In this document: positions 37,061-62,290 of the stretch, one piece after another | Layout: each line of letters begins with the position of its first letter | Position numbering within the stretch: position 1 is the first letter of the stretch | Virus record (IMG/VR): IMGVR_UViG_3300017739_000005 | Span: 25,713-89,712 of that record | Length of the DNA: 64,000 nucleotides | Strand: one strand, 5' to 3' | DNA from: a virus | The notes under the pieces: model-generated | What the model was told of the DNA's origin: nothing | Databases searched by the model: none | Seen by the model: the letters and a program-made list of their open reading frames with translations, nothing else | Made by a program: the position numbers and the translations under genes

Positions 37061-37068
37061 TATTTATG
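37061..37068 (-). promoter_or_regulatory. Late-promoter-like octamer CATAAATA
   Basis: CATAAATA, one base from the T4 late consensus, lies 24 nt before the ATG at 37036 and overlaps the stop codon of the preceding gene. Confidence 0.6.
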
Positions 37069-39003: not shown

Positions 39004-42000
39004 TTAGTTATCGTCGAAGATTTGGTCTGGTGTGAAGTTGTCAACAGTAGTTGCTCCTATGTTAATTGTAAGAATTGCAGCGTTAGAAAGTGTTGGTGTT
39101 GCTCCAGCAGCGGTGAGTCCACATCTGAATTCATCTCCACCATCTGCCTGTGTAGTAGCAGGAGAAGTGAATGTAGGAGATGTAGCACCATTGACGTTAT
39201 TCCAGTCACTCTCACCGTAGTTCTTCTTCTGCCACTGATAGGTTATTGATCCACCAGCAGGGTTAGTAGACGCGATCACGGTGAAGGATGCCACCTGACC
39301 TTGGTTAACGGTTGTGTTAACTGGTTGTGATTCAATGACGATTGCTTGCTCACCCTGTGCCTGATCTTGACCTGGAGGAACGTAGTTTGGATCATAGATG
39401 TCGATACCACCGTTGACTCCAACACCTGAAGGTGCGAAGAAGTTATCAGGAACAGTGGTGTTCACATTGATTGTTGGTTGTGCATAACCTTGACCTGCGT
39501 TCTTCACGTCAACACGTGCAAGACCAACAAGTGCCTTGATGCGTGCACCAAAACCTGAGGATGAAATCACATCCACGTTAGGACGTGAATCGTAACCATC
39601 ACCAGAGTTTGTAAGGATTGCTTCTGTAACACGTCCTTTCTCGATGATTGCAAGAGCGTCTCCATTACGTCCCTTAACAGCACCCGAATATTCGAATGTG
39701 ATTAGTGAGTTAGAAGATTCAATTAGAGCAACCTCTCTAGTCTCGTCCTCACCTTCGATCTGTAGGATGTCACCTGATTCGATTGGAGGAACAACGGTTG
39801 CCGCGATAACGTCAACGTCAGAACCAATGTAAGAGAAGGCGACGAAGGTTGAACCTGCACGAGGAACTTCAGAGAAGATGATTCTAGAACCAACGATCTC
39901 GAAACCAATTCCAGGTTCCTGAATAACACCGTTCAACTGACAGATGATATTGTTTTCAGGGAGGATAGTGTTGGACTGTACACCATCAGTTAGTGTAAGT
40001 GAGTAGAACACACCACCAAGTTTCAAGTTGAAGGAGTTCCTCAAGGAGTCAAAGTCGAATGAGATGTCATCCAACTGTCTCAACTTACCGACGTACACAC
40101 CGTGGAATGTAGATCCAACAGCAGGTGCTTCAGTGAATTGGATGTTGTCAGAGAATGCTGTGTAAGCGTTGTTACCACCAGGAGGTTGGAGGATACCATT
40201 CACGAAGATCATCATATGACCTGCTGGATCTGGGAAGTATGCAGTACCGTTTTCTTGTGTTAACTTGAAGTTCTGCTGAACACCATCAAATCCTCTGAAG
40301 AATCTCTTCACACGCCCGCGTAGGGTCTTAGCGACTGAACACGCTGCTCTGAATCCTGCATCACCAATGATCTGAGCATTCTTGAGGAATGTACCAGAAG
40401 TATCACCAAGGTGAATAATCAAGCGAAGACCGATTTGTTGGATCTTCTCAATCTTACCGTAGGCAGATGTTGTGGTGATATTGACCTGTGTAATACCAGA
40501 TGTATAAACAGATGGGAAGTTAGATCCAGGTGGAATCTTAGCAAGTTGATATGCTGAGTCGTTTGCGATAGATGAAAGGTTATCACCGATACTTACGAAA
40601 CGTCCAGTCTCATTTGCTAGGAAGATTGTATTGTTATCAAGGTCGTGTTCAGTAACAACGAATGTGTGACCAACAGACTGACCTGAGTTTTGGAGTTGTA
40701 GAACATCACCAACTTGGAATGTATCAGTAACACCAGTGTCAGTAATCAATCCTGCGTACACGAAGGAAGTAATTTCAGTGGAGTGGATGTATTCACCAAA
40801 TCCAGGAAGGAGTGTGAATGCTTCAACTTCGATAATCTGATCGGTAACAGAACCGTAGATAACATCGTTAGGAGCAAATTCTCCAACAACAGTTTCAATG
40901 TCGTAGGTAATTCTACCTGATTGGTTATCGACTAGAGAACCATCATTGTTTCTAACGATAAGGGCGTTTGCTTTACCTGTATCTTCCTTAGAATAAAGGA
41001 TGTCAGTAGCAATAAACTCACCTTGCTTGAAGTTGACCAGTGCTCTATCGTGAATTCCTGCATTCACAGTTGCAGTTGCACCTGTTGTGATTCCTTCGAT
41101 ATTGTCAGAAGCGATGAAATCACCACCTGTCATCTCTACCTTGATGTAAGTTGAGTTGTCAGTTGCGATAATTTTACCAGTGTTTGCTGAAGCACCAGTC
41201 TTAACAATCATCTCTCCGTTAGTGAATGGAGTTCCACTACTTGTAACGGTGATAGGAAGGTACTTAACCTTGTAGTTAACAGCAGCGAGGTTATCTTGAA
41301 TTCTGATAACTTCAGCATATGCACCTGATGATGTTCCGTAGAATATATCAGCAGGTTCAATACCACCAGATGTAGGTGTAGGAATAATACGATCGCCATA
41401 TGTGGTTGGAATCCTATTGATACCAGTCTCTCTCGCGATTGCAAGTGTATGAATTTCTCCTGGAAGTCCAGGTGTTAGAGATGTAAGTTTGTCTCCATCA
41501 ATGTATTCTGCCAAGTAGATTTTGGAAGAAGTAGTGTCTGGGTGGATGTAGTACGACTCCCTGTCAAGTTCCACAATATTTGTACCCAAGACAGTGTAAT
41601 TAACTCGGTCATATGCTTCGAATGGATGATTGTTTTTAGAGATAGAACCGTCAGAGTTTACATCAACACCAACGTCAATTGTTTGTTTGAGGTAAACAGT
41701 TGGCAACTTCGATTCTGCAAGAGCAGTATATACCAAATGCCACAACTGCTGAATCTTATGTACAGCAGTCATCGTAGGACGCATCTCTCTATCTTTGTAG
41801 AGAGGTTCGAAGTTGTAAGTTCCAGGTTCGGGAGCAGTACCAGAAAGGATATGTGTGATCATATCTGTGGTTGCTGTCGCGTGGAAGATTAGATAGGTTC
41901 TAAAGATATTAGGGAATGCGACGAAATTACCCTCGGCATCAAACCAAGTATTAATTAGTTCGATTGTTTTAGCGTTACTATCAGTCAACAAGTCATAAAT

Positions 42001-45000
42001 GTACGCTTTTCTGATTATATCGCCAAATGTTTGATCACCAGTGTATCCAGAATACTGGTTCACTGTCTTATAATATGCTTCTCTATTAATATAGAGATCA
42101 TTGATTGAAAGTATGCGTGATGCCTGACGATACATTTCAGGAGCAGATCCTAATGTATCCTCAAGAAGATCAAACAGAATGTTGGAAGCAGATGTTACGT
42201 TGTAGCAAACACCACCACCAAACAGTAGAGTGTTGTTTAATACAGGTGCGTTTCTACTAATGCCTTGGTTAGTGAAGTAACTACCATTTCCAGCAGCAGC
42301 ATCTTTAACAATACCAATAACGATGTCGAATAGAGAACTGATAGTTGAGGATTCAACATTACAAGCACCAGATCCTGCCTGATCATATGTGATAGTGAGA
42401 TCACGAACAGCGGCACGTTCACCTGTCAGTGGCCACTCGCCTGGTAGCGTACGTGAGATGCCATCTATGTAATTTTGTGGGTTACTTGTACCACTGTTGA
42501 ACAGATCTACAGTGATTCCCATCAATGTTGTGATAGCAGATGCTTGAGTAGCACATCTTGTTGCTCCACCACCACCTGTGATCCAACTGATTGAATTAGT
42601 TGTAGAACTAACGAACGTGTGGTTATAGTTACCACCACCCTGTACAGCATTAGATACAGCGGATACGAATGTATGAGGATACTGTTCACTAGAAGGTGAA
42701 GGGTTAACATTAACCTTGATTCGACCATTCTTAAACTTGATTCCGTTTGCAACTGCACTGGTAAATGTGTGAGTGTAGTTACCACCAGCAGAGATTGCGT
42801 TAGGTGTAGCACTTACAAATGTATGAGAAGTTGTGTTGGTTGAAGGAGTTCTGCCAGAAGCAAGAACGTTGACTGTGACTGTAGTTGCAGTTGCAGCAGT
42901 AACTTCAAGAGGAACATCGTATGCTCTATCCTTCTTCCAAGTAACACCACCAGATGTTGCTGAAACAAAGGTGTGTGCAGTAACGTTAGTTGAAGGAATA
43001 CCATCAGAAAGGAGAACCTGAACTTTAAAGGTATTGGCAGTTACGTTAGAGATTTCCAACCAAGATCCTGATGCAGGGTCACTGCTTCTTGGATATGCGT
43101 GGTTAGATCCATCACCATCTTGAGCACAAGTAAATGTAACTCCATTATCAGCAATCTTAATTTGATCACCATTAGAGAACCCGTGCTGAGGAATAGTCAG
43201 CGTCATAATACCAGATGTGCCATTGTAAGCAGCATCAGTAACTGTATGAGTTGTAGTTGTAGTTCTAGGATACGAATGGTTGGTTGCGTTATCGTCTTCC
43301 TCACAAGTAAATGTAAGTGAATTGGGTTGAATCTTAAGATGTGAACCAGTAACAAGACCGTGACCATTACCAAGGGTCAAGATCATCAATCCTGTAACGG
43401 GATTGTATGCAACGTTTGAAGGCGTGAAGTTAACTGTGCCTGTAGTACCAACGTTTACAGTAAATGTATTTGTAGCAACGTTTCCAATAGGAAGGTACTT
43501 GTTAGCAGCAGGATCAGATACACGAGGATATGAATGAACAGTATAGTTGTTGTCCATATCACAAGTGAAGTTCAGGGAGTTGCTAACAATCTGAACGTTG
43601 TCCCCGTTGGCGAACCCGTGGTTAGGAACCGTAAGAGTTAGAACACCAGTTGCAGGAACATATGCTGCATTAGTTGCAGTAAATTCAGAATCACCAATCT
43701 CAAGAACAGTTAGAGATTTACCTGATGCATAGTCAGTGGCACGAGGATATGAATGGTTAGTAGCATTACCATCCTTAGTACAAGTAAATGTAACTGCATT
43801 GTCAGGTAACTTGACGTGTCTACCAACATCCAAGGTGTTGGAACCGATGTCAAGGAACATATCACCAGTTGTTTCATTGTATATTGCGTTCGTTACATCG
43901 TAGTTAACGTTACTAGTTGTACCAACATTGACTGTAAATGTAGAAGAATTAGAAGATGTGACTGGAAGAAGAGCACCGTTTGAAGGATCAAGAGGTCTTG
44001 GATAAGTATGCTCTGATTGATTACTGTCAAAGTCACAAGTAAACTTCAATGCATAAGTTGCAATCTGAACAGCGTCACCTGTCACCAGACCGTGACCAGT
44101 CTTAGTTAAGACCAAATCACCTGTTGCTGCATTATAAGTTGCGTTTGTAGGAGTTAACTGACCAGTTGTTGAACTGCTAGAGTCAATAGTAATACCATTA
44201 TCATATTGAGGATAACCTTCAGTGTAACCATTAACATTAACTAACTGCTGTCTCATCACCTCAATAGCGATGTCACGTGCCTGTTCGAAGATGTACTTAA
44301 CTTCAGTAGCCTGTGAATTGATGTGCTGGATAGCGTTTGCATCAGTGATATAGAACTCAGTTGCATACCAGACCTTATTATTACCACCGTGCTTGAGGTT
44401 CCACGCCATTGCTTCAAGGATGTCAATAACATCATCGATACAAGACTGGTAACCATAACCACCAAATGTAAGGTTAGGGTATTGAGCATATCCACGTCCT
44501 ACAGCAGTAGAAGCGATGAATCTCATATTATTGAGGATCTCATTACCTGCGTCGTAGTCCTTATTAGTAGTAGCGTTACTATCATAATCACCACGTGGAA
44601 CTCCACCACCAATAGCATTTCCACCGCCACCACCAGCACTGACATCTTCGAAGGGAGTAAACCCAAGTTTATTGCGGATCGCGAGAACTGACATATCTCT
44701 CGCCATCTTATAAGCGTAGATTGTCTCTTGTGATTGACCAGTGACGTGACTGAGACCCATATCTGTATTCAGATAGAGTGCTGCAGCATCATATACTTCA
44801 CTGTTAGAAGAGAATCTCAAATCGTGAGCAACAGAGTTGATGAAATCAACGATGTCATCCTCACAATGAACCTTACCACCAGGAACTCTGAAGTTGTAAT
44901 GCTTGAATGCTGATGTCTTAGTTACAATGTCAACTGCTTCAGCAGCAATAGTACGAGCATTTCTTTCAATGATGTTTGCAGAATCAAGTGCTCTATGTGA

Positions 45001-48000
45001 TCCTTGGAAGATCTTAGGATCGGGAGGATAGAATGTGCTTTCGGTAATTACTGATCCAGTTAGATCGTAGTTGACAGTAGCATCATATTCTTTTCTGTAT
45101 GCAGTCAGGTCACTATACTGAAGTTGATAGAAATCATCGATAGTATTAGGAGTTGTACCTACAATATTAGCAATGTTCTCGTTTCTACCTACCAAGAGGT
45201 TCTGAAGTGCTTTATTTGCAAGGAACTTGACGTGCTCAAGAGCATCAAGCATTGCAAGCAATTCGTGCTCAATATAGTTAATATTACTCTGTGAATCAAG
45301 ATAAGAATCAATCATACCCTGAATATTAGAGTTACCACCAGTGATCAAGTCACCTGCAACAGCGGGTACGATGTGATCTCTAATGTCTCTAACACACTTC
45401 TCTCTACTAGGAATGTCAATCTTATCAATCTGGATAAAGTTGACCATAACGTTCCATTCTTGCTCCATCATAGAGACTGCTTCATCAGCAATCACACCAC
45501 GGTTGAAGTAAAGAAGATCAGCACCATCTCTAAATCTATCTCCTGTTGGAGACATAACTTCCAACATATTGTCAATCAAGTCAGAGATGAAACCTGTAAT
45601 TGTAGATGCTGCAGGAGATGCGAAATAATTAGGAACTCTAATTCTGTTTGTGTACTCGCCAGTCAGATCAGTTGCATCTTTAGTGATGATGTCATTACAG
45701 ATCTTACCAACTTCACGCCAAGTGTAGATTGACTGTAGAAGTTCACCGTTGATATGCTTCAGAGCACCAGATCCTTCCAAGTATCCTCTACCTGCAACGA
45801 TTGTGTGATAGTTACCACCCAACTTAAGGTCATCGATAATAGCAGGGATTATAAAGGAATGAGTATCGCGAATACACTTATCAGTACCTTGAGTTGAAGT
45901 ACCTGTGTCACCTGGAATATTAAATGCAGGATATTTCGCCTTCATTCTACCAACTGCTTCTTCAGCGATCCAATAACGGTTCTTATAGATGATGTCACCA
46001 CAGTCTCTATAAGCATCACGAGAAACATCAACTTCCTCTGTCATAATCTCTTCACGCCAGAGTTCTACTCCATCGGCATTAGCAGAAGAGATGATAGTCT
46101 GTTCATATGTCGCGTAGACAGCAGAGAGTTCTATTGGGAATGGTGCTTCTCCGTTGAAACCAAACGAGATGTCAAGAGCACGGAAATCATAAACGGTGGG
46201 GGGTATAAACCCACTAGAATAGCTGGCGGTTCCTTTTCTGATAATAAGGTTATCCATATTACCTGTGAAAGTCTCACCATTGTTCCAAGATGCACCAACA
46301 CTGATAGGACTATTACCATAGTCTGAAGCGTCAGTGTAATCTGATCCAACCTGTTGTCCCGCAACGAACAGTTTGGTCACATTAGATGCTCTGGAAATAG
46401 CAATGTGATACCACTGATTTGCATTAGGAATAGCACCTGCAGCAGTGATATGGTCAGTTGTGGCAATACCAAACTTCAGTGATGTACCCTGTAAGAAGAT
46501 TGAACCAGCACTGCTGCTGGATGCAGTTCTGAAATCAATAAGTCTTTGTGTTCCAGATACAGTTGTAGGATAGATCCACATCTCGATCGTATAATCACCA
46601 GTACCAAAAGCAAAGGCGGCATTAGAAGCGTGGTTGATTCTAGAAGATGTACCAGAGAAATCTAGTGATCCTGTACCAGTTCCAGGGTTCAACTTATCAA
46701 CAGTAACGTTGTTATAAGTGATTGTGGAGTTTGTGATGTACTCAGCAGTGGTGAATGCACCAGTAACACCTTTTGTATATGCCCATTTAGAACCAGCGTT
46801 GGTTCCGATGATCTCTGCAACAGCACCTGAAGATATACCTTTCAGTGTTTGACCGAAGTTGAAGAATCCACCAGATGATTTGTCCTTATAAGAATGCTTG
46901 ATAGAACGGATTGTCTCACCTTCAGTGAAGGTGTACGCTGGTGCAATTCTAGGAACATTACTAATAGACCACTGATAAGTTGCAGGATTAGCACCAGTAG
47001 GATCTTGTAAGGTGTCAGTAACAATTTTGAAGAAGTTTGCAACAGCAGATGTTTGAGCAACACAAGCATTTACATTAGGAATTGTAGTTCTACCTTGTGA
47101 GTAGTCTGCCTGAGGTGCAGTTGATGTAACTGCTGCTTGGAATGCCGCTCTAGTGCCTGGAGATGCAGTTGTACCAAGGTTTGTAATCAGAATGTCCATC
47201 AGTGTAGTGATGGCAGCAGCAACCGCCTGACAGGTCGGAGACGCAGTGTCAGCAGTGATAGAAATAGTTACTTGGTTCCAACCGTGTGATCCTACCTTAG
47301 TGACAGCAATATTTCTCATAATATCGAGAGACATTGCCTTTGCCTTAGTAAAGGAGTTGACAATAGTGTCTCTATCACCAGATGTCACACCATAATGAAG
47401 GATTCTGTCTGTTGCTTCCCAGATGAAATCGTTACCACCGTGTGCAACGTTATAAGCAAGTGCTTCAATAACATCAACGATGTCTGATAGACAATGCTCA
47501 TCTCCACCAGATACGTTATATCCTGGGTTCTGAGTCTTAGCATAATGAAGTGCTTCGTAAGCAATGTACCATTTGTTAGCAAGTAACAAGGTTCTAGCGT
47601 CACCGTGACTGTTGCTTACAACTTCATATTCTGGAGTGATGGTAAGATCTTTCCACTGAGACAACGTTGTGTGCTCTGTGGTGATGTTAACCATATTAAT
47701 ACACTGGTTAGCGAGGTCTCTCGCAGCATTCATTGCATATACAGTCTGTGCTTCCTGTCCACCAACGTGATAGACAGTATTATTCTGAACATAGAAGTTT
47801 GCAGCATCCCAGACTTCAGAGTTACCATCGTGCTCAAGTTGCCAAGCAATTAGGTTGAGCATATCAACGATGTCATCCTCACAATTAGCACTGCCTGTAG
47901 GAATGGTAAAGGAGGGGTAGAAAGCCAACATTCTGCCCACCGCTTCTTCAGCGATGAAGCGATTATTCTTCACAATCGCTTCAGCAGCGTTATTAGCACG

Positions 48001-51000
48001 AGTATCGTGTACTGTTCTGATAGAAGAGTTACCGAAGTAGATCTTCTTAAGTCTGATATTTGTTCCAGGTGCAAAGTCATTACCAGTTAGACTGTCGTAA
48101 CGAATCTCTTGGTTTCTAACTGCTTCGAAATCTAGGAAGTCTTGGTTGTTAGTTGTCTCAGGATCGTATAGTTCAGTTGGGTTAATAACAGTTTCACCGA
48201 TGTCATCAAGAATGACGTTCGGGAATGTGATTGAAGGAACTCTCTGGAAGACAAGAGCAAAGAAACTAGATGAAGGTGAAAGGTCAACAGTATCGATAAT
48301 CTGATTAGATATTTCATCCTGATAAGGTGAGATAGCAGAAACAGTTGCTGCAATGTTAGATCTTGCAGAGTAGATTATGTCATTGAACTTGATCTCAAAT
48401 TCACCAGTTTCAAACTTAGAAGTACCAGATGTTCTAGAAACAACCAGAGAGGTATTGATGTTACCTTCATCAAGGTTGTTCTCCTCAATGATTGCAAACT
48501 TACCAGATAAGTTAGTAACTCTCTCACCCTGTTCAAAGATTGTCTTAGATGAAACTGGGAAGATACCACCAGTTCCTTCTCCAGAATCACCGATTCTAGA
48601 GTTAAATCCAGTAGCACTGTTAAGAATAAATTCGCCCTCTTGGAATCCTCCGCTTGGTCCGTTCTCAATATTAAGAAGGTCAATGTAGTCAGTACCAGAA
48701 TCCACAACAATACCAGTTGCTTCAGAGATAATACCTCTGACCCTGTTACCAACTAAGGGGAAGATACCACCGAGTTCAGAGAACTGAACACGAGTAATTA
48801 AAAGTTGAGTGAATGTAATATTTCTGAACTTAATTCTAGAAGGTGCCTTTGGAGGTTCAGAGAATACAATAGAAGGACCTGCTGTAGAGAATGAATCTCC
48901 AGGTGCCTGTGCGACACCATTAAGAAGAACAAACATCTGATCTTCAGTCGCAGTAATAGAACCACCCTCAACATTCAGTGGGAATTGAGTTCTGATACCA
49001 TCAAAGTCTTCGGAAATGTTATCAATCTTCTTAACGATAGAAGTTAGAATTTCCTCAGAGTTAGTAAGTCTCTTCTGTCTGAATAGGACTTCAGTGTTAT
49101 TAAATTGTGTGTATATTGGTTGTGCGTTAGCAAATGATGTAATCTGGTTAATATTAGTGAATGCGTTGATATTAACTTCTTTAACAAGATCAGATACAAC
49201 CTTTCTTCCAGAAATATCCTTACCACCAGTGATTGATAGTTCACCAAATAGGTTGAATCCAACAGGGTGGTTTGTTTCTAGTACAGGTTTTCTCCACTGG
49301 TTGATAGGTGTTTCAGACTTAATAACGTAGGAGAAGTTCTGATAGAAGTAACTATCTTGAATTTTCTGAACGATTTCAGATGGTTTACCAACGTCATCGA
49401 TAAACTGACCTGGAGTATTAGTTAGTGAGTCAATATTAAGAGTACCACGAGCGATTGAAAGGTTATCAATCAAACCAGAAGCACGAGAAACTTCACCAGT
49501 TACACGCTCACCTGGGGTCCAAACACCGTCATAGTTCTCAAGTTTAAGGATTCTAGGTCCAATCTGCCAACCTTGGTTAGTAGAAACATAACCTGTAGCA
49601 GATGCAAGTTCAAGTGAAGAACCTTGATAAACAAGTTCACCTTCTAAGAAACGAGATGTTTCAACGATAGCAGTTGCTTGACCACCAAACACTTCGGTTA
49701 AGAGAATCTGTCTACCTTCACCTTGTGTCAAGAATGTGATGTAAGAACCAGATTCAGCGTCAAGTTTAGTAAGTGAGATTCTAAGTTGGTCAGATTCAAG
49801 ACCATTTGCCTCTCCAGCAATAGCATAGTAAGTCTGAGTAGAAGATAGACTGACCAAACCAGCAGAACTTGGTTTTGGTAGAATACCAACTGTAGATCCA
49901 AGATCTTCTGCTCTCAACTGGATTTCAGCACCAGTCGTAATACCGTGTGGGAAGTTAAACTGTAGGTAACCGAGGTCAATGTTAACAACGTAGTTAAATT
50001 CTGACTTAAGTGTGACTGAAGGTTCAGAACTGTATCCTGCACCAGGATCTTTGATGATAACTTCACTAAGACGATTATTCTTAACGATCGCTTCAGCAGC
50101 AGCACCTGATCCACCACCACCAGAAATAACAACAGCAGGTGTAGAGGTGTAACCAGAACCAGGGTTTGTGATCTTGATTTCTGCAAGAATAGCGGTATTA
50201 AACAACTGAAGGTTCACTGGGAAAGTGATTTCAGGTCTCAAAGTATAGTCGTGAGAATAACCGAAACCAAATTCGTTGTTCTTAAGTTTCTTGATACGTC
50301 CGATACTCTTACCTTGTAGGAATACAGAAGCACCTGAACCTTCAGAAGGAATCACAACATCAAGAATACCACCTGAACCAGCAAGTAGAGGTCCAAGAAT
50401 TCCAGAAATAGAGTCAATATCTATAGATGCTGTTGTATATCCTTTACCAGCAGAGGTTAAAACAACGCTAGTGATAACACCAGTGAAGTCTCCATCATCA
50501 GTAACAGTGATATTACAACTTGCACCTTCTCCATCTCCTGAAATAGGTACGTTATAGTACACACCATTAACATATTCAGTACCACCATTGGTGATACGAA
50601 CCTTTTCAATCTCTCTGTTAGACGCAATATCAGTAACGATAGGTAATTTCTGATAGAATCCACCTGGATTCACCAATTTAATGGTTGAAATAGGTCCAAT
50701 TGCCTTAATTGATGTTGTAGAGTAGATAGAACGTGGAAGTCCAAACTCATTATTGCCTACAGGAGCGTTAGATTTCTCTGGTTCAACAAGAAGTGGGAAG
50801 TCAAACTCCAATCCATCACTAGAAACGTTAGAAATAGTGAATGTTCCTGCATAAGGAGACTGAATAACGTCAATAAATGATCCCTCACCAACAGGAGAGT
50901 TGTCTGCTGAGGTTCTAGATGGGTCAAAGTAGTATGAGATGTTAGTAATATCTTCATTGATGATAAATTTAACCAACGGAGTCGGTGAATCATCATCAGT

Positions 51001-54000: not shown

Positions 54001-57000
54001 ATAGATGTTATGAGGATTAGAGTTCTCAATATGAAGTGACTTCCACTGCAATGACTTATCATCAGTTGCAGGAACGGTAGGAATTAGAGTACGCTTCCAA
54101 AGCAATCTACCATCACTATTAAACTTAGCAAGAACACCTGCTGTATCGCCACCTACAACTGTTGTCTTACCACAGACATAGAAAGTACGATCATCAGCAA
54201 CTTTGATGTCATTGATAGTAAGAGTAGAACCTGCTTCTTCAAGGAATGCTAAGAAGTAAGTTGCTTTCTTGAATCTCTGAGGATGAGAAACACGAATCTG
54301 TGGAGGATTAGTTTCAGAGTATCCTGAACCAGAGTTAATAATACTTACAGTTCTTACAGCACCACCTTCATCTCTATTGATGTCAATATTGAAATCTTGA
54401 CCAGAGTCAGTAATGATCTCATATGTTGGAGGAATGTCCTCAGAATATCCAAGACCTTCCTGATCAACAGTAACTCTTTCAACACCATCGATCACTTTCA
54501 CTCTGAAAGTCTTATTGGTGTCATCAAGAATAGGTGTGGAGTTAATAATGATCTGATCATCTACACGCAGTTCGTGCTCAGTTGCAGTAGTGATACGTCC
54601 ATATGGGCGATCATTTGAGATATAAGAGTTGAAACCTGCAATATCTAAACCTTTAACCGCTTCAACTTTTGCGGAGGCTCCGAAACCATCAGTTCCCTCG
54701 TTATCAAAGTATAGTTTATCATTGACTTTATATGATATACCTGGGTTCTCAACCACGAATCCGTCAACTTTAGCGTCTTCGAACTTGGTCGTAGTCTCAA
54801 TATCAATATCAACAACTGATCTTGTAGAAACTTTAGGGTAGTAATCAAATAATTGTAGTACGGGTTCTTCAGTGATCTGAATAGGTGTGGTGTCTTCAAG
54901 GTTATTGATAAGACCATCTCTATTAGTATCTTCAATTTCGAAGATAAGATCCTCACCAAGTTCAGTAACAAGAGTATCAGTTGCTTGGTTAGGTGTACGA
55001 TCAATATCAATATCCACATCCTCATAAGGATCACGGAATCTAACCACATCAGCAGGGATATTGGTCTGTACAGCATCTTGAGAGAAGTTCCACTCATCAG
55101 GTGATGAATACAACTGAGGTCCACAAATGTATGGGAATATAGGATTACCAGCATCAGTTGCGTCGATTGCTACGAAATAAGCGTAAACACCCTCAGGGAA
55201 CTGAGGAGTCTTACAGAAACGACCGTTATACTGGTCTAAATCACCCTCTTGGAAAACATATTCATAATCATCAATGAATGATCCTGCAATATAATTGCTA
55301 AGAAGAGGACCATCTGCGCGAATTGGGGTAGGGTTAGTATCAACATCGTACAGAAGTACAGGTTTAATTCTATAAGATGAACGAATTCTTCTAACACCAG
55401 ATGACTGGTCAGTAGCATCAATGTAACCGTAAGGTCCGTAGATAGGGTTACCATCGAAAGCCCAACCCAAAATAGGAGAGTGTTGGTATCCAGTCGAAAG
55501 TTCTTGTAATTGCTGTGTTGACTGATTCTTGAATACGTTATCACCAAGAACATATCTTAGTTGCTTAGGATCTGAAAGGTGTGCATATTCACCACCATAT
55601 TGTGTATTATATCCTGCAAACACATAACCACGTGCTGTATCAAAGTTTGCTCCAAGTTCATCCTGAAGGTTTCTAGTCCACTCAAATACAGTTGCAGTAA
55701 ATGCTGCTAGTTCACCAACCGCTCCCAAGCGAATAGTAGTATTACCAGTAGTATAACCAATACCTCTGTTTATAACAGTAACACCAATAACTTTACCTCT
55801 ATCCTCACCAACAGTACCGATAGTTGCTCTTGCAATGGCACCGTAACCGTCTCCATTGATTACAATCTCAGGAGCAGTTGTGTATCCTCTACCTGCAGCA
55901 ATGATAGCGATAGAAACGATTCTACCGTTAATGATGATTGATTGAGCAACAGCACCTTCACCAGAGTTCAACTTAATAGTAGGAGAGGCAGTGTAAGTGG
56001 AACCTGTGTTATCAATACTTACAGATTGAATAGGACCACGTACCTGCGCGGTAGCAGTACATCCAGTACCACCCCCACCAGAGATGGAAACATCAGGTTG
56101 TGATGTATATCCTTGACCTGGGGTCTCAACAAGGATCTTAGATACTATACCATTGGTAATAACAGCGGTAGCAGTAGCACCGAATCCACCACCACCCACG
56201 ATAGAAACAAGAGGACTAGAAGTGTAACCAGTACCCCCGCTAGAAACTGAGATCTCACTTAATGCACCGTTAACAACAACACTTGCGCTGGCACCACTAC
56301 CGCCACCACCATTGATTTCAATAACAGGAGGATTAGCAGCATCATACCCAGTACCAGGGTTATCAATAGTTATACCAGTCAATCCACCAAACTTAATCTT
56401 AGTCTGTGACTTATAAGACCAAGTAGATACACCGTTTACCCAAGCACCAATAGGACCAAAGGATGTGTCTGTACGTCTAGAGATTGTATTGATAACTCTA
56501 GGAATACGGATCAATTTACGCTGGTTTCCAGGAAGTAGCGCAGATCCTAAGAAAGGACCAACCTGATAGTTTGGAATACCAGAGGATGCAATGTATGCAT
56601 ACTGATCATTGAAGAATGTATTCTGTACGTTGGTAGTAAAGTCTCTGATAGCAACGCTAATACCCTCTTCAGGTGACTTACCTTTGTTGAGGTCAACAGA
56701 AAGAAGGATATTACCCTGTGGTGAGTTAGGGGCAGGGGCAGGAATATTATATTCAAACAGTGTATTACTAATACGGGAGGTTACAAAGAAGGTACCGTTA
56801 AACACAGTTGGGTTTGCACCGTAGATTGTAACAGTGTCACCAACCAGTAGACCGTGGTTATTAGAGCAAGTAACCGTCGCAGTCTGATTATTAAGACCAC
56901 CAGGGACGATATTGGCAATATTGATTAGTTTTTTAACGTTGTACAACCAAGAAGTGACTCTTTGGTCATTAGAAGTCGAACCAAGTGATGCAACGTTTAG

Positions 57001-59784
57001 TTTGTCACCAGGAAGATAGTATGAACCATTGTCAGACAATACAGTGGATTCTGCATCAGCAATACCAAGAACACGTAGTTTACACTCAGTTTCAGTGCCA
57101 CGGTTTACATAAACGAAGATGTCAGAGTAAACAATAGTACCAGCATCCCAATCTTCAACCACACCGTTCTTAGAACGAGTACATTCGATGAACTGGTTTA
57201 GTGTTTTCTCTTTATACTGTACAACTTCATCGTCATTGATACGGATTGTACCGTTTCTTTCTGGCCAACCGATAGTAGAGTCAACTGTAATAATGGACTC
57301 AGTAGTAGAAAGTTCCTCAACAAGGAGTGTTCTGTATGGGATAGTAAAAGAACCCTGCAGTGTTTCCTCAGAAATTGCAAGTTCATATACAGTACCAACA
57401 CCAGTATCGATGGCAATAACGTTCTCAATCAGTGCAGATGCACCTTTTACACCAGTATCAACAGGATCAACATACTGAATCAACTGTGAATCGAGTAGAT
57501 TCTCAAGTGAACCTTCCAAAAGTTCTGCTCTGAGAACGGTATCTACGTTCCAAGTTGCAGCAGATGGTTTGATAATCTCATCTTTAGGATAAGAAACATC
57601 AACATTTTCAGAGTAAAGTATCTTAAAGAGGTACTGTGTGGAGATTTTCGTACCTTTCGATGCGTAAAAATCACCAATAGTCTTAATAATCTGCGGAGCA
57701 TTAACTTTATTGTAGTCAATTTCCGCGTTTGGAAGATATTGATTTACGAATCTTCTGTATAATTCCTTAGCAAAAAGATTATCTAGATTACTAATAGTGC
57801 TTCCAACAGCGTGAGAAGACTGTTGTAGATCGGATTCTTTGCTGTATATCTGATGACCTGCTTGGTCAAAGGAAGTAACGGCAGATACTCCGCGTTTTAC
57901 GTTGACGAATGCTGATGGTTCGTATCCTACTCCAGAACTATGGATAGTAAAACCTGTAATCTCTCCAAAACCAACGTCACAAGACGCTTCTGGTGCAGGA
58001 GGAGCAGCGATAAAGACCTTAGGAGGTTCTGTATCAGAGTATCCAGTACCAAAGTCAGTGATATTAATGTCAGTTATTTCACCGTTGAAGATGGTAGCAA
58101 CTGCTGTTGCACCAGTACCACCAATAGGTTGATTGTTAGAATCCTTTCTATTATCAACGATATACACAGATGGAGCATCGGTATAACCCTTACCACCTGT
58201 CAATAGTTCAATATTAGTAACTCTACCACCAGTACAAGATACATCAAGGATCTGTGCACCAACAGGGTCAATAATCTTTGCCCTGATGTTACCTTCATAT
58301 CCTTGACCTGAAGAAATAAGATTAATGCTTGTTACTCTACCGTCAGCATCAAGAATTGCCTGAGCAGTTGCATTAATAGCATTATCTCCAGTAGGAGGAT
58401 CCATATACACCAAAGGTGCAGTTGTGTATCCTGAACCATTGTCTACGACTGAGATTGATCCTGCAACGATTGATCCGTTTTCGACTGTAGGATTGGTGCA
58501 AGTAGCACCACCAGGATTAACAAACTTAATTGAAGGAATGCGGTCATATCCACTTCCTGAAGAAGTAACACGCAGTTCTGTAACACCTTCGATTTCATCA
58601 GATACAATTGCTGTAATAGTTGCTCTACTGCCTTCTGCATCAGAAGGTGCATCCACAATTACCACAGGAGGATTGTTAGATGAATAACCTTGACCAGCAA
58701 ATAGAAGTTGAGTGTTCTTGATACCATTTACAAGTGCTTCGGCAGTAGCACCAGAACCAGGACCTTTATTTGACTGAATAGTGATCTTGGGAGCAAAACT
58801 TACTCTGTAACCACTACCACCATTTCTAACAAGGATGTCATTAACTGATGCATTTACGATTTGGGAGACTGCTGACGCACCTGAACCAAATTCAGGAGCA
58901 ATCAGTTCAACAGATCTTACGTCAATTGTAGCATTTTGTGAAACAGGTTGCTTGAAGATGATCTTATCTTCAAAAATTGTGAATTCTTCGAACGGTCTCT
59001 TCTCTGTTCTGTTGACAACAACGATCGCTGCCACAGTAGAAAGAGGACTGTATGCTTGAGTGTTCAGTTTTAGTGCAAACTCAGTAGCATCAACAGCAAC
59101 TGTAATGGTGTCCAGAGAACGGACTGGAACGCTTGTGTAACCAATCAGATAACGAATGGTATTGACTGCACCTGTCAACACCCCTGTAGTCGGTGCTGGA
59201 GGGTTTACAAAGCGTATCTTGTCTCCTTCAACGAAGTAATCCCTGTCAGGGAACATAAAATCGTTATTTACGATCACCAAAAGGTGATTTGAAGACTGAG
59301 GTGAAACTGGTTTACCTAACTGTCTTAAATTAAATTCTGTCTTTGCACTATCAAACTGAGTATTGATAGGTTCAAATTCTTGTACTTTTCTATCAAATTC
59401 TTGTTTATTGACCCCTGGAGTGAAAACAATGTCAGGAGAATGTGTTACAGACTCGTAATATAGAACTTCATTGTCAATTTTTATAGTACCATCTTTCTCT
59501 AAGAAGTAGTTTACATTCTCAGCAATAATTTTATTCTCTGTAGCATCAACCGCTTCTAGTACAGCAGATTCAGACGACAAGAAATTTGGATCGAATTCAC
59601 CCGACCCAATGTCAACATATGAAAGTATATTGTTTAAAATGTCGTAAGGACGACCTGATTTCTCCTGCGACTTGTAGTATTCTGTCAACAAGTTCACGAA
59701 CTGGTCGTGATCCTCCTTGATAAACGCAGGAATCTGACTACTCAGTCTTTGAGAGACCTTAATTGCTGTGTTGTGTGCAACCAT
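39004..59784 (-). CDS. Giant gp7-like baseplate wedge protein, 6926 aa
   Basis: A single frame of 20.8 kb. gp7-like core motifs are at about 700-735 (IGDFYASKGTKISTQYLFKI; T4 gp7 has DFYSTKGIEASYKFLFKVLY) and near 3505 (ETNHPVGFNLFG; T4 VHPVGFGF). Added segments in order: GSGY repeats (about 300-630, 1130-1350, 3200-3260, 6720-6780), YHYH-like (about 1425-1555), propeller-like (about 1840-2230), LamG-like (about 2245-2440 and 4370-4530), a helical module in six copies (about 3930-5190), SYPR repeats (about 5220-5615) and a C-terminal Ig-like domain (about 6820-6915). It lies directly between gp6 and the fibre genes, the T4 position of gp7. No frameshift is seen. gp7 identity is inferred. Confidence 0.85.
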   Translation of the reverse strand: MVAHNTAIKVSQRLSSQIPAFIKEDHDQFVNLLTEYYKSQEKSGRPYDILNNILSYVDIGSGEFDPNFLSSESAVLEAVDATENKIIAENVNYFLEKDGTIKIDNEVLYYESVTHSPDIVFTPGVNKQEFDRKVQEFEPINTQFDSAKTEFNLRQLGKPVSPQSSNHLLVIVNNDFMFPDRDYFVEGDKIRFVNPPAPTTGVLTGAVNTIRYLIGYTSVPVRSLDTITVAVDATEFALKLNTQAYSPLSTVAAIVVVNRTEKRPFEEFTIFEDKIIFKQPVSQNATIDVRSVELIAPEFGSGASAVSQIVNASVNDILVRNGGSGYRVSFAPKITIQSNKGPGSGATAEALVNGIKNTQLLFAGQGYSSNNPPVVIVDAPSDAEGSRATITAIVSDEIEGVTELRVTSSGSGYDRIPSIKFVNPGGATCTNPTVENGSIVAGSISVVDNGSGYTTAPLVYMDPPTGDNAINATAQAILDADGRVTSINLISSGQGYEGNIRAKIIDPVGAQILDVSCTGGRVTNIELLTGGKGYTDAPSVYIVDNRKDSNNQPIGGTGATAVATIFNGEITDINITDFGTGYSDTEPPKVFIAAPPAPEASCDVGFGEITGFTIHSSGVGYEPSAFVNVKRGVSAVTSFDQAGHQIYSKESDLQQSSHAVGSTISNLDNLFAKELYRRFVNQYLPNAEIDYNKVNAPQIIKTIGDFYASKGTKISTQYLFKILYSENVDVSYPKDEIIKPSAATWNVDTVLRAELLEGSLENLLDSQLIQYVDPVDTGVKGASALIENVIAIDTGVGTVYELAISEETLQGSFTIPYRTLLVEELSTTESIITVDSTIGWPERNGTIRINDDEVVQYKEKTLNQFIECTRSKNGVVEDWDAGTIVYSDIFVYVNRGTETECKLRVLGIADAESTVLSDNGSYYLPGDKLNVASLGSTSNDQRVTSWLYNVKKLINIANIVPGGLNNQTATVTCSNNHGLLVGDTVTIYGANPTVFNGTFFVTSRISNTLFEYNIPAPAPNSPQGNILLSVDLNKGKSPEEGISVAIRDFTTNVQNTFFNDQYAYIASSGIPNYQVGPFLGSALLPGNQRKLIRIPRVINTISRRTDTSFGPIGAWVNGVSTWSYKSQTKIKFGGLTGITIDNPGTGYDAANPPVIEINGGGGSGASASVVVNGALSEISVSSGGTGYTSSPLVSIVGGGGFGATATAVITNGIVSKILVETPGQGYTSQPDVSISGGGGTGCTATAQVRGPIQSVSIDNTGSTYTASPTIKLNSGEGAVAQSIIINGRIVSIAIIAAGRGYTTAPEIVINGDGYGAIARATIGTVGEDRGKVIGVTVINRGIGYTTGNTTIRLGAVGELAAFTATVFEWTRNLQDELGANFDTARGYVFAGYNTQYGGEYAHLSDPKQLRYVLGDNVFKNQSTQQLQELSTGYQHSPILGWAFDGNPIYGPYGYIDATDQSSGVRRIRSSYRIKPVLLYDVDTNPTPIRADGPLLSNYIAGSFIDDYEYVFQEGDLDQYNGRFCKTPQFPEGVYAYFVAIDATDAGNPIFPYICGPQLYSSPDEWNFSQDAVQTNIPADVVRFRDPYEDVDIDIDRTPNQATDTLVTELGEDLIFEIEDTNRDGLINNLEDTTPIQITEEPVLQLFDYYPKVSTRSVVDIDIETTTKFEDAKVDGFVVENPGISYKVNDKLYFDNEGTDGFGASAKVEAVKGLDIAGFNSYISNDRPYGRITTATEHELRVDDQIIINSTPILDDTNKTFRVKVIDGVERVTVDQEGLGYSEDIPPTYEIITDSGQDFNIDINRDEGGAVRTVSIINSGSGYSETNPPQIRVSHPQRFKKATYFLAFLEEAGSTLTINDIKVADDRTFYVCGKTTVVGGDTAGVLAKFNSDGRLLWKRTLIPTVPATDDKSLQWKSLHIENSNPHNIYVVGETVPNISNLTHNPDIVVAKYQSGFDNANNPDGLIQWQRDIAGISGSTRRDYASNIRLDQDGRVMIAGHTDSNSTAPDDMWVALMDIDGSVMEKRKIASAAASEHLHQIEWRTNDTFLFCGISDPAGAANIIIGETYYDTATIEVQWSKQIESGAYQFADPTFAIDEYGSVYVTATAIDTNAKNYGVLYAKFDNADYTQVATAKIYVPTGTYTSIKNAGVTFDVFGNIDLSAVVERDFNAVQSISVKISWNTSSVLSAAEVSETNGIGYHATCVANDNSGDTLIAGNKVEADQLAIFNWNTADNIFDETYNDTLRTGTNKQWAATGNAVIDNTKFYNGASSLKLDASNSMLLQYGTTADISVEWTMEGWFALGNTQYAAQASNPEFFGIVSQLSQEVKVGVDGTSGSANFGKIFLDLNGSTSYSTGTTFWTTFNSEAWVHVAISKQRPGVGSYIYRIYINGVEAHSVNSATVDVNMMQATLGPISTPSSTNNWIGWIDNFVVTPSAKYIDAFTAGLVTGTNSVDKAFIYKIDKDKTKLGSFTLNDVETGHTINVAASSSYTFNTQSVAVNPWLIGPAGIQILDYSDVVSTHVPGVYTVTSTDQSYATRTATIPTQGGKKLLLTTKVIPKFYIRDAKYSTIDLVKTLTFNQNATFTKGSILQQYSVIGGNDVVSAYGTVVEVGTSSCKIGKIIGTFDTSKLLKSTVGDVNEMDKEFTVLTTTPVWEENQNYTVGDVVYSNGKIYTSGTTATAGAVAPVHTSGTVSDGNINWAFTSTAGSFQVDLANSVHGSGTLAAFASWKPFNSADYTIRIQQIYADSTFIKGDTIDADAVNLTFAVDATGKIATFGGLVGVKQFNLQAKLNKDVVPSQALTNTDLVYCSATSRHNYEVNDIIFTERFATNEYNGSFFVEEIFTSRDFTFRIRSTAVQDPTFSGTGSSVSNINIYAKHPKFLFVRGHQYLFDLDDPSNLGYFLSFSRDNQYKLEYPFINIIREGTPGFTDDDSPTPLVKFIINEDITNISYYFDPSRTSADNSPVGEGSFIDVIQSPYAGTFTISNVSSDGLEFDFPLLVEPEKSNAPVGNNEFGLPRSIYSTTSIKAIGPISTIKLVNPGGFYQKLPIVTDIASNREIEKVRITNGGTEYVNGVYYNVPISGDGEGASCNITVTDDGDFTGVITSVVLTSAGKGYTTASIDIDSISGILGPLLAGSGGILDVVIPSEGSGASVFLQGKSIGRIKKLKNNEFGFGYSHDYTLRPEITFPVNLQLFNTAILAEIKITNPGSGYTSTPAVVISGGGGSGAAAEAIVKNNRLSEVIIKDPGAGYSSEPSVTLKSEFNYVVNIDLGYLQFNFPHGITTGAEIQLRAEDLGSTVGILPKPSSAGLVSLSSTQTYYAIAGEANGLESDQLRISLTKLDAESGSYITFLTQGEGRQILLTEVFGGQATAIVETSRFLEGELVYQGSSLELASATGYVSTNQGWQIGPRILKLENYDGVWTPGERVTGEVSRASGLIDNLSIARGTLNIDSLTNTPGQFIDDVGKPSEIVQKIQDSYFYQNFSYVIKSETPINQWRKPVLETNHPVGFNLFGELSITGGKDISGRKVVSDLVKEVNINAFTNINQITSFANAQPIYTQFNNTEVLFRQKRLTNSEEILTSIVKKIDNISEDFDGIRTQFPLNVEGGSITATEDQMFVLLNGVAQAPGDSFSTAGPSIVFSEPPKAPSRIKFRNITFTQLLITRVQFSELGGIFPLVGNRVRGIISEATGIVVDSGTDYIDLLNIENGPSGGFQEGEFILNSATGFNSRIGDSGEGTGGIFPVSSKTIFEQGERVTNLSGKFAIIEENNLDEGNINTSLVVSRTSGTSKFETGEFEIKFNDIIYSARSNIAATVSAISPYQDEISNQIIDTVDLSPSSSFFALVFQRVPSITFPNVILDDIGETVINPTELYDPETTNNQDFLDFEAVRNQEIRYDSLTGNDFAPGTNIRLKKIYFGNSSIRTVHDTRANNAAEAIVKNNRFIAEEAVGRMLAFYPSFTIPTGSANCEDDIVDMLNLIAWQLEHDGNSEVWDAANFYVQNNTVYHVGGQEAQTVYAMNAARDLANQCINMVNITTEHTTLSQWKDLTITPEYEVVSNSHGDARTLLLANKWYIAYEALHYAKTQNPGYNVSGGDEHCLSDIVDVIEALAYNVAHGGNDFIWEATDRILHYGVTSGDRDTIVNSFTKAKAMSLDIMRNIAVTKVGSHGWNQVTISITADTASPTCQAVAAAITTLMDILITNLGTTASPGTRAAFQAAVTSTAPQADYSQGRTTIPNVNACVAQTSAVANFFKIVTDTLQDPTGANPATYQWSISNVPRIAPAYTFTEGETIRSIKHSYKDKSSGGFFNFGQTLKGISSGAVAEIIGTNAGSKWAYTKGVTGAFTTAEYITNSTITYNNVTVDKLNPGTGTGSLDFSGTSSRINHASNAAFAFGTGDYTIEMWIYPTTVSGTQRLIDFRTASSSSAGSIFLQGTSLKFGIATTDHITAAGAIPNANQWYHIAISRASNVTKLFVAGQQVGSDYTDASDYGNSPISVGASWNNGETFTGNMDNLIIRKGTASYSSGFIPPTVYDFRALDISFGFNGEAPFPIELSAVYATYEQTIISSANADGVELWREEIMTEEVDVSRDAYRDCGDIIYKNRYWIAEEAVGRMKAKYPAFNIPGDTGTSTQGTDKCIRDTHSFIIPAIIDDLKLGGNYHTIVAGRGYLEGSGALKHINGELLQSIYTWREVGKICNDIITKDATDLTGEYTNRIRVPNYFASPAASTITGFISDLIDNMLEVMSPTGDRFRDGADLLYFNRGVIADEAVSMMEQEWNVMVNFIQIDKIDIPSREKCVRDIRDHIVPAVAGDLITGGNSNIQGMIDSYLDSQSNINYIEHELLAMLDALEHVKFLANKALQNLLVGRNENIANIVGTTPNTIDDFYQLQYSDLTAYRKEYDATVNYDLTGSVITESTFYPPDPKIFQGSHRALDSANIIERNARTIAAEAVDIVTKTSAFKHYNFRVPGGKVHCEDDIVDFINSVAHDLRFSSNSEVYDAAALYLNTDMGLSHVTGQSQETIYAYKMARDMSVLAIRNKLGFTPFEDVSAGGGGGNAIGGGVPRGDYDSNATTNKDYDAGNEILNNMRFIASTAVGRGYAQYPNLTFGGYGYQSCIDDVIDILEAMAWNLKHGGNNKVWYATEFYITDANAIQHINSQATEVKYIFEQARDIAIEVMRQQLVNVNGYTEGYPQYDNGITIDSSSSTTGQLTPTNATYNAATGDLVLTKTGHGLVTGDAVQIATYALKFTCDFDSNQSEHTYPRPLDPSNGALLPVTSSNSSTFTVNVGTTSNVNYDVTNAIYNETTGDMFLDIGSNTLDVGRHVKLPDNAVTFTCTKDGNATNHSYPRATDYASGKSLTVLEIGDSEFTATNAAYVPATGVLTLTVPNHGFANGDNVQIVSNSLNFTCDMDNNYTVHSYPRVSDPAANKYLPIGNVATNTFTVNVGTTGTVNFTPSNVAYNPVTGLMILTLGNGHGLVTGSHLKIQPNSLTFTCEEDDNATNHSYPRTTTTTHTVTDAAYNGTSGIMTLTIPQHGFSNGDQIKIADNGVTFTCAQDGDGSNHAYPRSSDPASGSWLEISNVTANTFKVQVLLSDGIPSTNVTAHTFVSATSGGVTWKKDRAYDVPLEVTAATATTVTVNVLASGRTPSTNTTSHTFVSATPNAISAGGNYTHTFTSAVANGIKFKNGRIKVNVNPSPSSEQYPHTFVSAVSNAVQGGGNYNHTFVSSTTNSISWITGGGGATRCATQASAITTLMGITVDLFNSGTSNPQNYIDGISRTLPGEWPLTGERAAVRDLTITYDQAGSGACNVESSTISSLFDIVIGIVKDAAAGNGSYFTNQGISRNAPVLNNTLLFGGGVCYNVTSASNILFDLLEDTLGSAPEMYRQASRILSINDLYINREAYYKTVNQYSGYTGDQTFGDIIRKAYIYDLLTDSNAKTIELINTWFDAEGNFVAFPNIFRTYLIFHATATTDMITHILSGTAPEPGTYNFEPLYKDREMRPTMTAVHKIQQLWHLVYTALAESKLPTVYLKQTIDVGVDVNSDGSISKNNHPFEAYDRVNYTVLGTNIVELDRESYYIHPDTTSSKIYLAEYIDGDKLTSLTPGLPGEIHTLAIARETGINRIPTTYGDRIIPTPTSGGIEPADIFYGTSSGAYAEVIRIQDNLAAVNYKVKYLPITVTSSGTPFTNGEMIVKTGASANTGKIIATDNSTYIKVEMTGGDFIASDNIEGITTGATATVNAGIHDRALVNFKQGEFIATDILYSKEDTGKANALIVRNNDGSLVDNQSGRITYDIETVVGEFAPNDVIYGSVTDQIIEVEAFTLLPGFGEYIHSTEITSFVYAGLITDTGVTDTFQVGDVLQLQNSGQSVGHTFVVTEHDLDNNTIFLANETGRFVSIGDNLSSIANDSAYQLAKIPPGSNFPSVYTSGITQVNITTTSAYGKIEKIQQIGLRLIIHLGDTSGTFLKNAQIIGDAGFRAACSVAKTLRGRVKRFFRGFDGVQQNFKLTQENGTAYFPDPAGHMMIFVNGILQPPGGNNAYTAFSDNIQFTEAPAVGSTFHGVYVGKLRQLDDISFDFDSLRNSFNLKLGGVFYSLTLTDGVQSNTILPENNIICQLNGVIQEPGIGFEIVGSRIIFSEVPRAGSTFVAFSYIGSDVDVIAATVVPPIESGDILQIEGEDETREVALIESSNSLITFEYSGAVKGRNGDALAIIEKGRVTEAILTNSGDGYDSRPNVDVISSSGFGARIKALVGLARVDVKNAGQGYAQPTINVNTTVPDNFFAPSGVGVNGGIDIYDPNYVPPGQDQAQGEQAIVIESQPVNTTVNQGQVASFTVIASTNPAGGSITYQWQKKNYGESDWNNVNGATSPTFTSPATTQADGGDEFRCGLTAAGATPTLSNAAILTINIGATTVDNFTPDQIFDDN
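42930..44130 (-). repeat. Tandem SYPR repeat coding region inside the giant gene
   Basis: About five units of roughly 75 codons. Each unit has A.YN..TG.M.L, then HG...GD.V.I, FTC..D.N.TNHSYPR, DPA.G and NTF.VNVG. The FTC cysteine recurs in each unit. A shorter HTFVSA-type repeat (five copies) follows. Read directly from the translation. Confidence 0.85.
44230..48010 (-). repeat. Region with six helical repeat modules inside the giant gene
   Basis: Modules of about 100-120 codons start near nt 47990, 47600, 46020, 45530, 44990 and 44550. Each has N.(R/W).IA.EAV (RFIAEEAVGRM in the first), a C..DI.D or C..D.. site, (H/L)GGN or equivalent and an A.D/A.. helix. A LamG-like domain interrupts between the second and third. 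Confidence 0.8.
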
Positions 59785-61882: not shown

Positions 61883-62290
61883 TTACGCCTTCTCTAAGAG
61901 GAAGTCAATAGTTTGAACTAGTTGTTCACCGATGATTGTGTAATCAATCTCAACTTGTAGTTCATTGTCGTTATCAACATTACAACGAACATCATTAACT
62001 ATCACTCTTGGTTCTAAACGCTTTAGGGTATTCCTAATTTCGTCATTTAGACCTTCAATCATAAAAATATCGAAGTTCTCAAACAACATTGATCTAACAC
62101 GAGAACCTGTGGTTGGTTGGAACGGTCTTTCACCGAACTCTGTCAACAACAGGTTCTTCATAGATTGTTTGATTGCGTTCTCGTTCTTAACCACAGAAAA
62201 ATCTTCAGTATTGGGATTTGATTTCATCCCAATACCTAAATCTCTAAACTGTCTGCTTAGATTCCTGTCTGCTTTGAACCTGTACGCCAC
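61883..62290 (-). CDS. gp25: Baseplate wedge protein gp25
   Basis: This 135-residue protein is the gp25 family, close in length to T4 gp25 (132). It contains the conserved EPR motif (residues 93-95, RLEPRVIVND), which starts sheath assembly in T4 gp25 and TssE-like proteins. The N-terminus (MAYRFKADRNLSRQF) and KNLLLTEFGERPFQPTTGSR are typical. A GATAAATA octamer lies 20 nt upstream, in the end of the preceding small gene, whose last 47 nt overlap gp25. Confidence 0.96.
   Translation of the reverse strand: MAYRFKADRNLSRQFRDLGIGMKSNPNTEDFSVVKNENAIKQSMKNLLLTEFGERPFQPTTGSRVRSMLFENFDIFMIEGLNDEIRNTLKRLEPRVIVNDVRCNVDNDNELQVEIDYTIIGEQLVQTIDFLLEKA

Follow-up and report, generated by a model that had tools for sequence, protein, structure and literature searches.

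A giant gp7-family protein of a T4-like cyanophage and its phycobiliprotein-like repeats

The giant reading frame and its gp7 core

The window, that is, the whole stretch of 64,000 nucleotides analysed here, is part of an 89.7-kb virus record (G000) and carries on its minus strand an open frame of 6926 codons, with its ATG at 59784 and its stop ending at 39004. The calculated mass of the protein is 746.8 kDa. A preliminary description had reported this uninterrupted frame, without its strand, and we recovered it unchanged. The ATG sits 17 bases past the gp6 stop, and inspection by eye of the sequence upstream of it revealed no clear Shine-Dalgarno sequence. Genes run in the order gp25-gp6-giant. 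Three genes, which encode a YHYH protein, a gp9-like connector and a protein of 624 aa, then separate the giant from gp8, so that in this baseplate operon it has gp6 on one side and gp8 on the other. The features of this region are as follows:

61883..62290, minus strand: gp25, baseplate wedge
59802..61880, minus strand: gp6, baseplate wedge
39004..59784, minus strand: giant gp7-family protein, 6926 aa; residue i starts at base 59784-3(i-1), running down
59605..59757, minus strand: gp7 core piece 1, aa 10-60 (weak, i-E 0.0014, alone no better than the best control)
57508..57756, minus strand: gp7 core piece 2, aa 677-759 (i-E 1e-17)
55159..55680, minus strand: YHYH domain, aa 1369-1542, in the second insertion (PF14240, E 1.8e-29, overlapping piece)
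49228..49401, minus strand: gp7 core piece 3, aa 3462-3519 (i-E 1.1e-18)
39469..40293, minus strand: C-terminal region common to P-HM1 gp7, aa 6498-6772 (i-E 3e-43)
31914..33449, minus strand: gp8, baseplate wedge (PF09215, Phage-Gp8)

Stop-free counterparts with the same domains were found in 3 other virus records (G002, 6929 codons and near-identical to the window; G001, 6919; G003, 6921), and PHROG 701 (6136 positions) matched all five overlapping pieces of the window protein, in several separate stretches in pieces 3 to 5. The frame, intact in 4 records, is therefore not an assembly accident. The near-identical record G002 (181,945 bases), the best segments of which are 100% identical to two compared stretches of the window giant, encodes psbA, a bilin reductase and CpeT, and on these genes the window virus is assigned to the cyanophages; no psbA was found in the window's own, shorter record.

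Some neighbouring genes are worth recording in their own right. The giant and the gene immediately downstream of it (37064-38803) each contain a YHYH domain, and both genes match PHROGs 25852 and 2576, so that neighbours share a domain. The same operon holds further giant virion-type genes at 24698-31909 (2403 aa, PHROG 358) and 18251-24169 (1972 aa, PHROG 697, "structural protein"), while a 153-aa staphylococcal-nuclease homologue (PF00565; 11399-11860) lies among the virion genes.

In one direct comparison T4 gp7 matched the window protein with an E-value of 5.9e-7, its residues 729-759 aligning to aa 701-731 and its residues 830-892 to aa 3453-3514. Profiles built without cyanophage sequences gave a concordant picture: that of T4, phiM12 and DLP6 gp7 matched aa 677-759 (1e-17) and, weakly, aa 10-60 (0.0014), and that of five small gp7 proteins matched aa 3462-3519 (1.1e-18), against a best full-sequence E-value of 0.0017 among 29 controls (20 shuffles, 1 reversal and 8 other window proteins). 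We retain piece 1 solely for its colinearity with the two strong pieces and for its better scores in relatives (i-E 4e-7 in S-SZBM1 and 1e-6 in S-WAM1). The preliminary description had staked its gp7 reading on a match within the N-terminal 3600 residues, and both strong pieces lie there, so that the reading survives on this point.

The small gp7 proteins (T4, 1032 aa, as the preliminary description correctly stated; phiM12, 1007; HTVC008M, 1016; Melnitz-3, 896; DLP6, 1288) resemble the window giant in their place between gp6 and gp8 and in their colinear core pieces. In contrast to them, the window core is interrupted by insertions of about 600 and 2700 residues and has 3400 more residues appended after it. 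No convincing match to the first 642 residues of T4 gp7 was detected in the window protein (one segment, 0.097); these residues are also absent from the gp7 of phiM12 and DLP6, which begin at the core. Because the T4 N-terminal part is unmatched and the core, the only part in common, is cut apart by insertions, the giant is not T4 gp7 made longer.

Neither is its size exceptional. All nine T4-like cyanophage relatives fetched have between 3048 and 8573 aa in the gp7 place (S-PM2, 3048; S-RSM4, 3515; P-HM1, 4446; Sf-CH8, 4878; S-SM1, 6180; S-SZBM1, 6619; S-WAM1, 6737; P-SSM4, 7312; P-RSM6, 8573), although not all cyanophages have so large a gene, that following gp6 in S-CREM2 being given as 5814 bases in Table 3 of PMC10665884. 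The first 1500 aa of the giant matched 478 phage records, 290 of them over at least 80%, with an identity to the gp7 segment of at most 64.6% in the best record and 36-57% elsewhere. Some of these giants are already annotated as gp7 (P-SSM4, P-HM1) or as "baseplate wedge initiator". The PHROG 701 giants of S-SZBM1, S-WAM1, S-SM1, P-SSM4 and P-RSM6 share gene place, size class and domain order with the window protein, and differ from it in repeat number and order. Judged by its sequence, then, the window giant is a T4-like cyanophage's version of the wedge protein gp7 and belongs to a known cyanophage family (PHROG 701). Of the earlier claim that it takes the place of gp7, the place and the core homology hold, whereas its standing as an exceptional, lengthened T4 gp7 does not; the gp7 reading was right, and already known.

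Its predicted status as a virion protein, also proposed earlier, is supported by orthologs: Table 1 of PMC9146016 reports S-SZBM1_208 (6619 aa, 724.20 kDa) in virions with 71 peptides, 13.5% coverage and an emPAI of 0.41, and T4-GC969, which corresponds to the giant SSM1_102, is reported from S-SM1 virions (PMC3037559). Presence of the tail in the virion is predicted, the 13.5% coverage of the S-SZBM1 ortholog being insufficient to prove one uncut chain. That coverage is compatible with a chain cut after translation, such that the virion would hold a normal-size gp7 plus separate tail proteins. Parts of the chain also match the shorter PHROGs 19630 (1266 positions, N-terminal) and 18802 (3007 positions, C-terminal), so that the pieces may be separate genes in some phages. 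Nevertheless, we consider such cutting improbable, since the frame is uninterrupted in all four records and the gp7 core pieces extend to residue 3519 and would be parted by cleavage near residue 1000.

Phycobiliprotein-like repeats in the tail

Comparing the whole chain with itself by BLAST revealed no repeats, but they appeared when the same chain was cut into shorter stretches. Six cysteine-bearing copies were found by self-comparison and a motif scan, and a seventh was added by profiles; none had figured in the preliminary description. The tail is laid out as follows:

47629..48054, minus strand: phycobiliprotein-like domain 1, aa 3911-4052, Cys3968 (CEDD; repeat profiles)
47245..47643, minus strand: phycobiliprotein-like domain 2, aa 4048-4180, Cys4098 (CLSD; repeat profiles)
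46240..46641, minus strand: Laminin_G_3 (lectin-like) domain, aa 4382-4515 (PF13385, E 7.6e-18)
45610..46071, minus strand: phycobiliprotein-like domain 3, aa 4572-4725, Cys4637 (CIRD; Pfam, profiles, AlphaFold model)
45133..45597, minus strand: phycobiliprotein-like domain 4, aa 4730-4884, Cys4797 (CVRD; repeat profiles)
44629..45051, minus strand: phycobiliprotein-like domain 5, aa 4912-5052, Cys4974 (CEDD; repeat profiles)
44182..44619, minus strand: phycobiliprotein-like domain 6, aa 5056-5201, Cys5115 (CIDD; repeat profiles)
41788..42192, minus strand: decayed seventh copy, aa 5865-5999, without the cysteine (i-E 8e-9)

Immediately after the array comes another repeat family (43015-44160; aa 5209-5590), apparently unrelated to the first, whose copies reach 47% identity.

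The Pfam family Phycobilisome (PF00502) matched aa 4598-4645 with 29.5 bits against a cut-off of 22.2, a cut-off that single repeat copies exceed only in part. When the second half of the chain was searched against PDB sequences, 3 sequences were retrieved at E <= 1, all of them phycoerythrin alpha chains (E 0.096-0.98), while the other half gave one unrelated match (E 0.31). We then used three repeat profiles, A1 (44 repeats), A2 (77 repeats, taken from viral contigs as well as the window) and A3 (65 rows, the subset of A2 without the window's clade), which are not independent tests since the repeat sets overlap. Profile A1 retrieved 145 distinct PDB sequences at E <= 1 (best E 5.2e-8), the best 60 being 58 named phycobiliproteins and 2 entries named "bacterial fluorescent protein"; A2 retrieved 136 (best 8e-6), with 58 phycobiliproteins, 1 "bacterial fluorescent protein" and 1 engineered smURFP among the best 60; and A3 retrieved 127 (best 5.3e-5), the best 60 of which were without exception phycobiliproteins. 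Taken singly, 21 of 44 repeats (E <= 1) and 19 of 65 (E <= 0.1) matched PF00502, as compared to 1 and 3 for the next family.

A profile-profile comparison with 19 phycobiliproteins reached 96.2% (E 2.1e-9 over 67 columns), while 7 reversed or column-shuffled profiles, in 3 comparisons each, gave at most 1.7%. Conversely, a search of 117 cyanobacterial genomes with A1 (E <= 1e-5) matched 13 places in 12 genomes; the 10 places that were read all encode alpha phycobiliproteins, and nine of them, together with one further locus (L170), all match PF00502 almost end to end. These controls and the reverse genome search make a chance likeness unlikely. The repeats are thus very likely homologous to phycobiliproteins, the sequence match spanning only about 60-70 residues of the repeat.

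AlphaFold models were obtained for aa 4570-4725 with A2 (pLDDT 86.9, pTM 0.80) and for an S-WAM1-like repeat with A3 (pLDDT 89.2, pTM 0.83). For both, the 50 Foldseek matches listed were all phycobiliproteins or their derivatives or fusions with a probability of at least 0.98, at modest E-values (best 8.6e-3 and 8.5e-3, none <= 0.001), TM-scores of 0.40-0.65 and, in some cases, an rmsd above 9. The 50 matches listed per model by VIA-align were the same kinds of protein, with Z 12.1-13.8, 116-141 aligned residues and rmsd 2.0-4.7 for aa 4570-4725, and Z 12.4-13.7, 112-125 aligned and rmsd 1.7-3.5 for the S-WAM1-like model; the tool itself warns that a Z near 13 is possible among unrelated helical proteins. 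A globin-type phycobiliprotein fold is therefore predicted for the repeats, the claim being carried by its agreement with the sequence.

Between about residue 20-31 and 150-165, the predicted fold agrees with that of phycobiliproteins (PF00502) and the related bilin-binding globins (BBAGs, photoglobins; PMC10151467). Positions common to the repeats and phycobiliproteins include an Asn, a Pro-Gly and the C-x-R-D. Unlike phycobiliproteins, the copies form a repeat array within one virion chain; the matches leave out the first N-terminal helices, and bilin binding is only putative. The N-terminal helix pair, which serves alpha-beta pairing, is a light-harvesting feature of phycobiliproteins; the VIA matches start at chain residue 13-33, and the repeat profiles cover no such pair in the nearby sequence considered.

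At E <= 1e-3, a tblastn search with a two-repeat query matched 356 of the 50,697 phage records, named Synechococcus (n = 280), Cyanophage (n = 59), Prochlorococcus (n = 16) and Marine (n = 1), so that the module is, by name, confined to cyanophage records except for the one called "Marine". Repeat profiles were positive in 12 of 17 records and then in 3 of 7 in a second set; all 15 positive records come from cyanophages or resemble the window, and two of them, G000 and G002, represent nearly the same virus. No copy was found by these profiles in P-SSM2, P-SSP7, S-CRM01, T4, KVP40, phiM12, HTVC008M, Melnitz-3 or DLP6 (n = 9). All five PHROG 701 giants named above carry such repeats. The module is not an intrinsic part of gp7, however: S-PM2 has it in d088 and d218 and not in its gp7 (d081), P-HM1, P-HM2 and S-RSM4 have it partly in other giants, and ACG-2014f and Sf-CH8 only in other ORFs.

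The low identity, the short match and the modest Foldseek E-values could also be explained if the six helical repeats had converged on a helical hairpin without homology. This we hold to be very improbable, given that all three overlapping repeat sets retrieve phycobiliproteins or derivatives in their best 60, that the reversed and shuffled profiles fall so far short, and that the cyanobacterial matches read are alpha phycobiliproteins while the module is found only in cyanophages. Within this already known giant, it is the phycobiliprotein-like array that is new. A tail protein partly built from relatives of host light-harvesting proteins is unexpected; no published report of phycobiliprotein-like domains in a virion tail protein was found in the open-licence literature.

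The bilin-attachment cysteine and phage bilin genes

When 60 non-redundant copies are compared, no column carries more information than that of the bilin-attachment cysteine. Cysteine was present there in 48 copies, Asp at +3 in 50, both in 47, Arg at +2 in 25 and the full CXRD in 24, and this column accounts for 48 of the 78 cysteines in all 60 copies. In the window, Cys and Asp are kept in 6 of the 7 copies and the full CXRD in 2 of 7 (2 of the 6 bearing the cysteine). According to PMC10151467, the chromophore motif of phycobiliproteins is frequently CXRD, and globins related to them bind bilins. CXRD was found in 8 of 9 copies in S-PM2 and 8 of 11 in S-RSM4. Outside P-SSM4 the cysteine is kept in 59 of the 62 copies covering the column, whereas P-SSM4 has it in none of 3 yet retains a bilin reductase and CpeT, and so provides a natural control.

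CpeT was detected in 12 of 23 records, comprising 12 of 15 with the module and none of 8 without it. The link to bilin reductases is weak (7/15 module-bearing versus 1/8 module-free records, G003 being counted as bearing), P-SSM2 having a reductase and no module. No CpeS-type lyase was found in any of the 23 records, and, according to PMC10452541, the site served by CpeT-type lyases is Cys-153. In S-PM2, cpeT (154408-154935) lies about four short annotated genes before d218 (156384-167723), and in S-RSM4 cpeT (176523-177047) precedes SRSM4_214 (175569-162121, "short tail fiber") with one gene and five tRNAs in between, in each case on the same strand as this module-bearing giant. Strong matches to full-length CpeT (1e-40 or better) were confined to these two related phages; wherever else CpeT was detected, its position is tens of kilobases away from the listed matches of the module. 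A tRNA gene cluster beside cpeT, just before the module giant, was seen in both S-PM2 (154000-162500) and S-RSM4 (160000-178500).

Host contact and a possible role of light

Overall, with a probability of roughly 0.7, we read the window giant as the wedge protein gp7 of a T4-like cyanophage, with inserted and appended parts that include, on either side of a LamG domain, six domains sharing ancestry or fold with phycobiliproteins. Its core would sit in the baseplate wedge with gp6 and gp25. As in T4, a virion would probably contain six copies, with a combined mass of about 4.5 MDa, and the insertions and the tail would stand outward as a host-contact surface. The tail domains, very likely homologous to cyanobacterial bilin-binding globins and multiplied by duplication, are present also in other giant tail proteins of cyanophages and would serve by default as structural and adhesive beads. 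A head or neck component, as the PHROG 701 category "head and packaging" would have it, is hardly tenable against the gp7 core, the gene order and the gp7 annotation in P-SSM4 and P-HM1.

For this gp7 protein, the preliminary description had proposed host contact as the use of the added part, and this is likely. S-PM2 grown in chemostats with Synechococcus WH7803 is reported to have acquired non-synonymous mutations in d081, d088 and d218, among 18 ORFs affected early (PMC9910659), that is, in its gp7 and in both its module carriers. These mutations, taken here at the level of whole genes, suggest host contact, as does the LamG domain between copies 2 and 3, and the confinement of the module to cyanophage records is consistent with it. 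The giant, including its tail, is most likely a host-contact apparatus. Even without pigment, the protein illustrates the growth of baseplate giants, in which a small core is split and loaded with domains, some shared with the host, that change under host selection.

A further reading is that cyanophage tails carry bilin pigments, the repeats binding a linear tetrapyrrole at C-x-R-D during assembly in the cyanobacterium and the pigmented tail acting as a light sensor for adsorption. We regard it as possible though on balance unlikely. It is favoured by the conservation of the cysteine, by the restriction of CpeT to module-bearing records and by the place of cpeT close upstream of the module giants of S-PM2 and S-RSM4. 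Against it, CpeT-type lyases serve another cysteine and the CpeS type was missing, P-SSM4 keeps the domain, reductase and CpeT with none of the cysteines, P-SSM2 has a reductase and no module, the cpeT neighbourhood did not recur by position in other records, and the genomes compared are related. Some cyanophages fail to adsorb in the dark (PMC7112961, PMC7238727), and of two phages compared P-HM2 is reported not to adsorb in the dark and P-SSP7 to adsorb (PMC7112961). P-HM2 has six module matches and P-SSP7 none, which fits but does not demonstrate a light-sensing tail, as the two phages, a myovirus and a podovirus, are unlike in almost all other respects. S-PM2 is a light-dependent phage; the adsorption class of P-SSM2, light-dependent or not, was not found in the literature searched.

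Were the tails pigmented, the module could underlie light-dependent adsorption of cyanophages, and the puzzling phage bilin genes would gain a phage-made target; many cyanophages are described as carrying such genes of unclear use, including phages of Prochlorococcus, which lacks standard phycobilisomes (PMC2984593). Spectra of purified virions would be a cheap test of both old puzzles, the failure to adsorb in the dark and the bilin genes.
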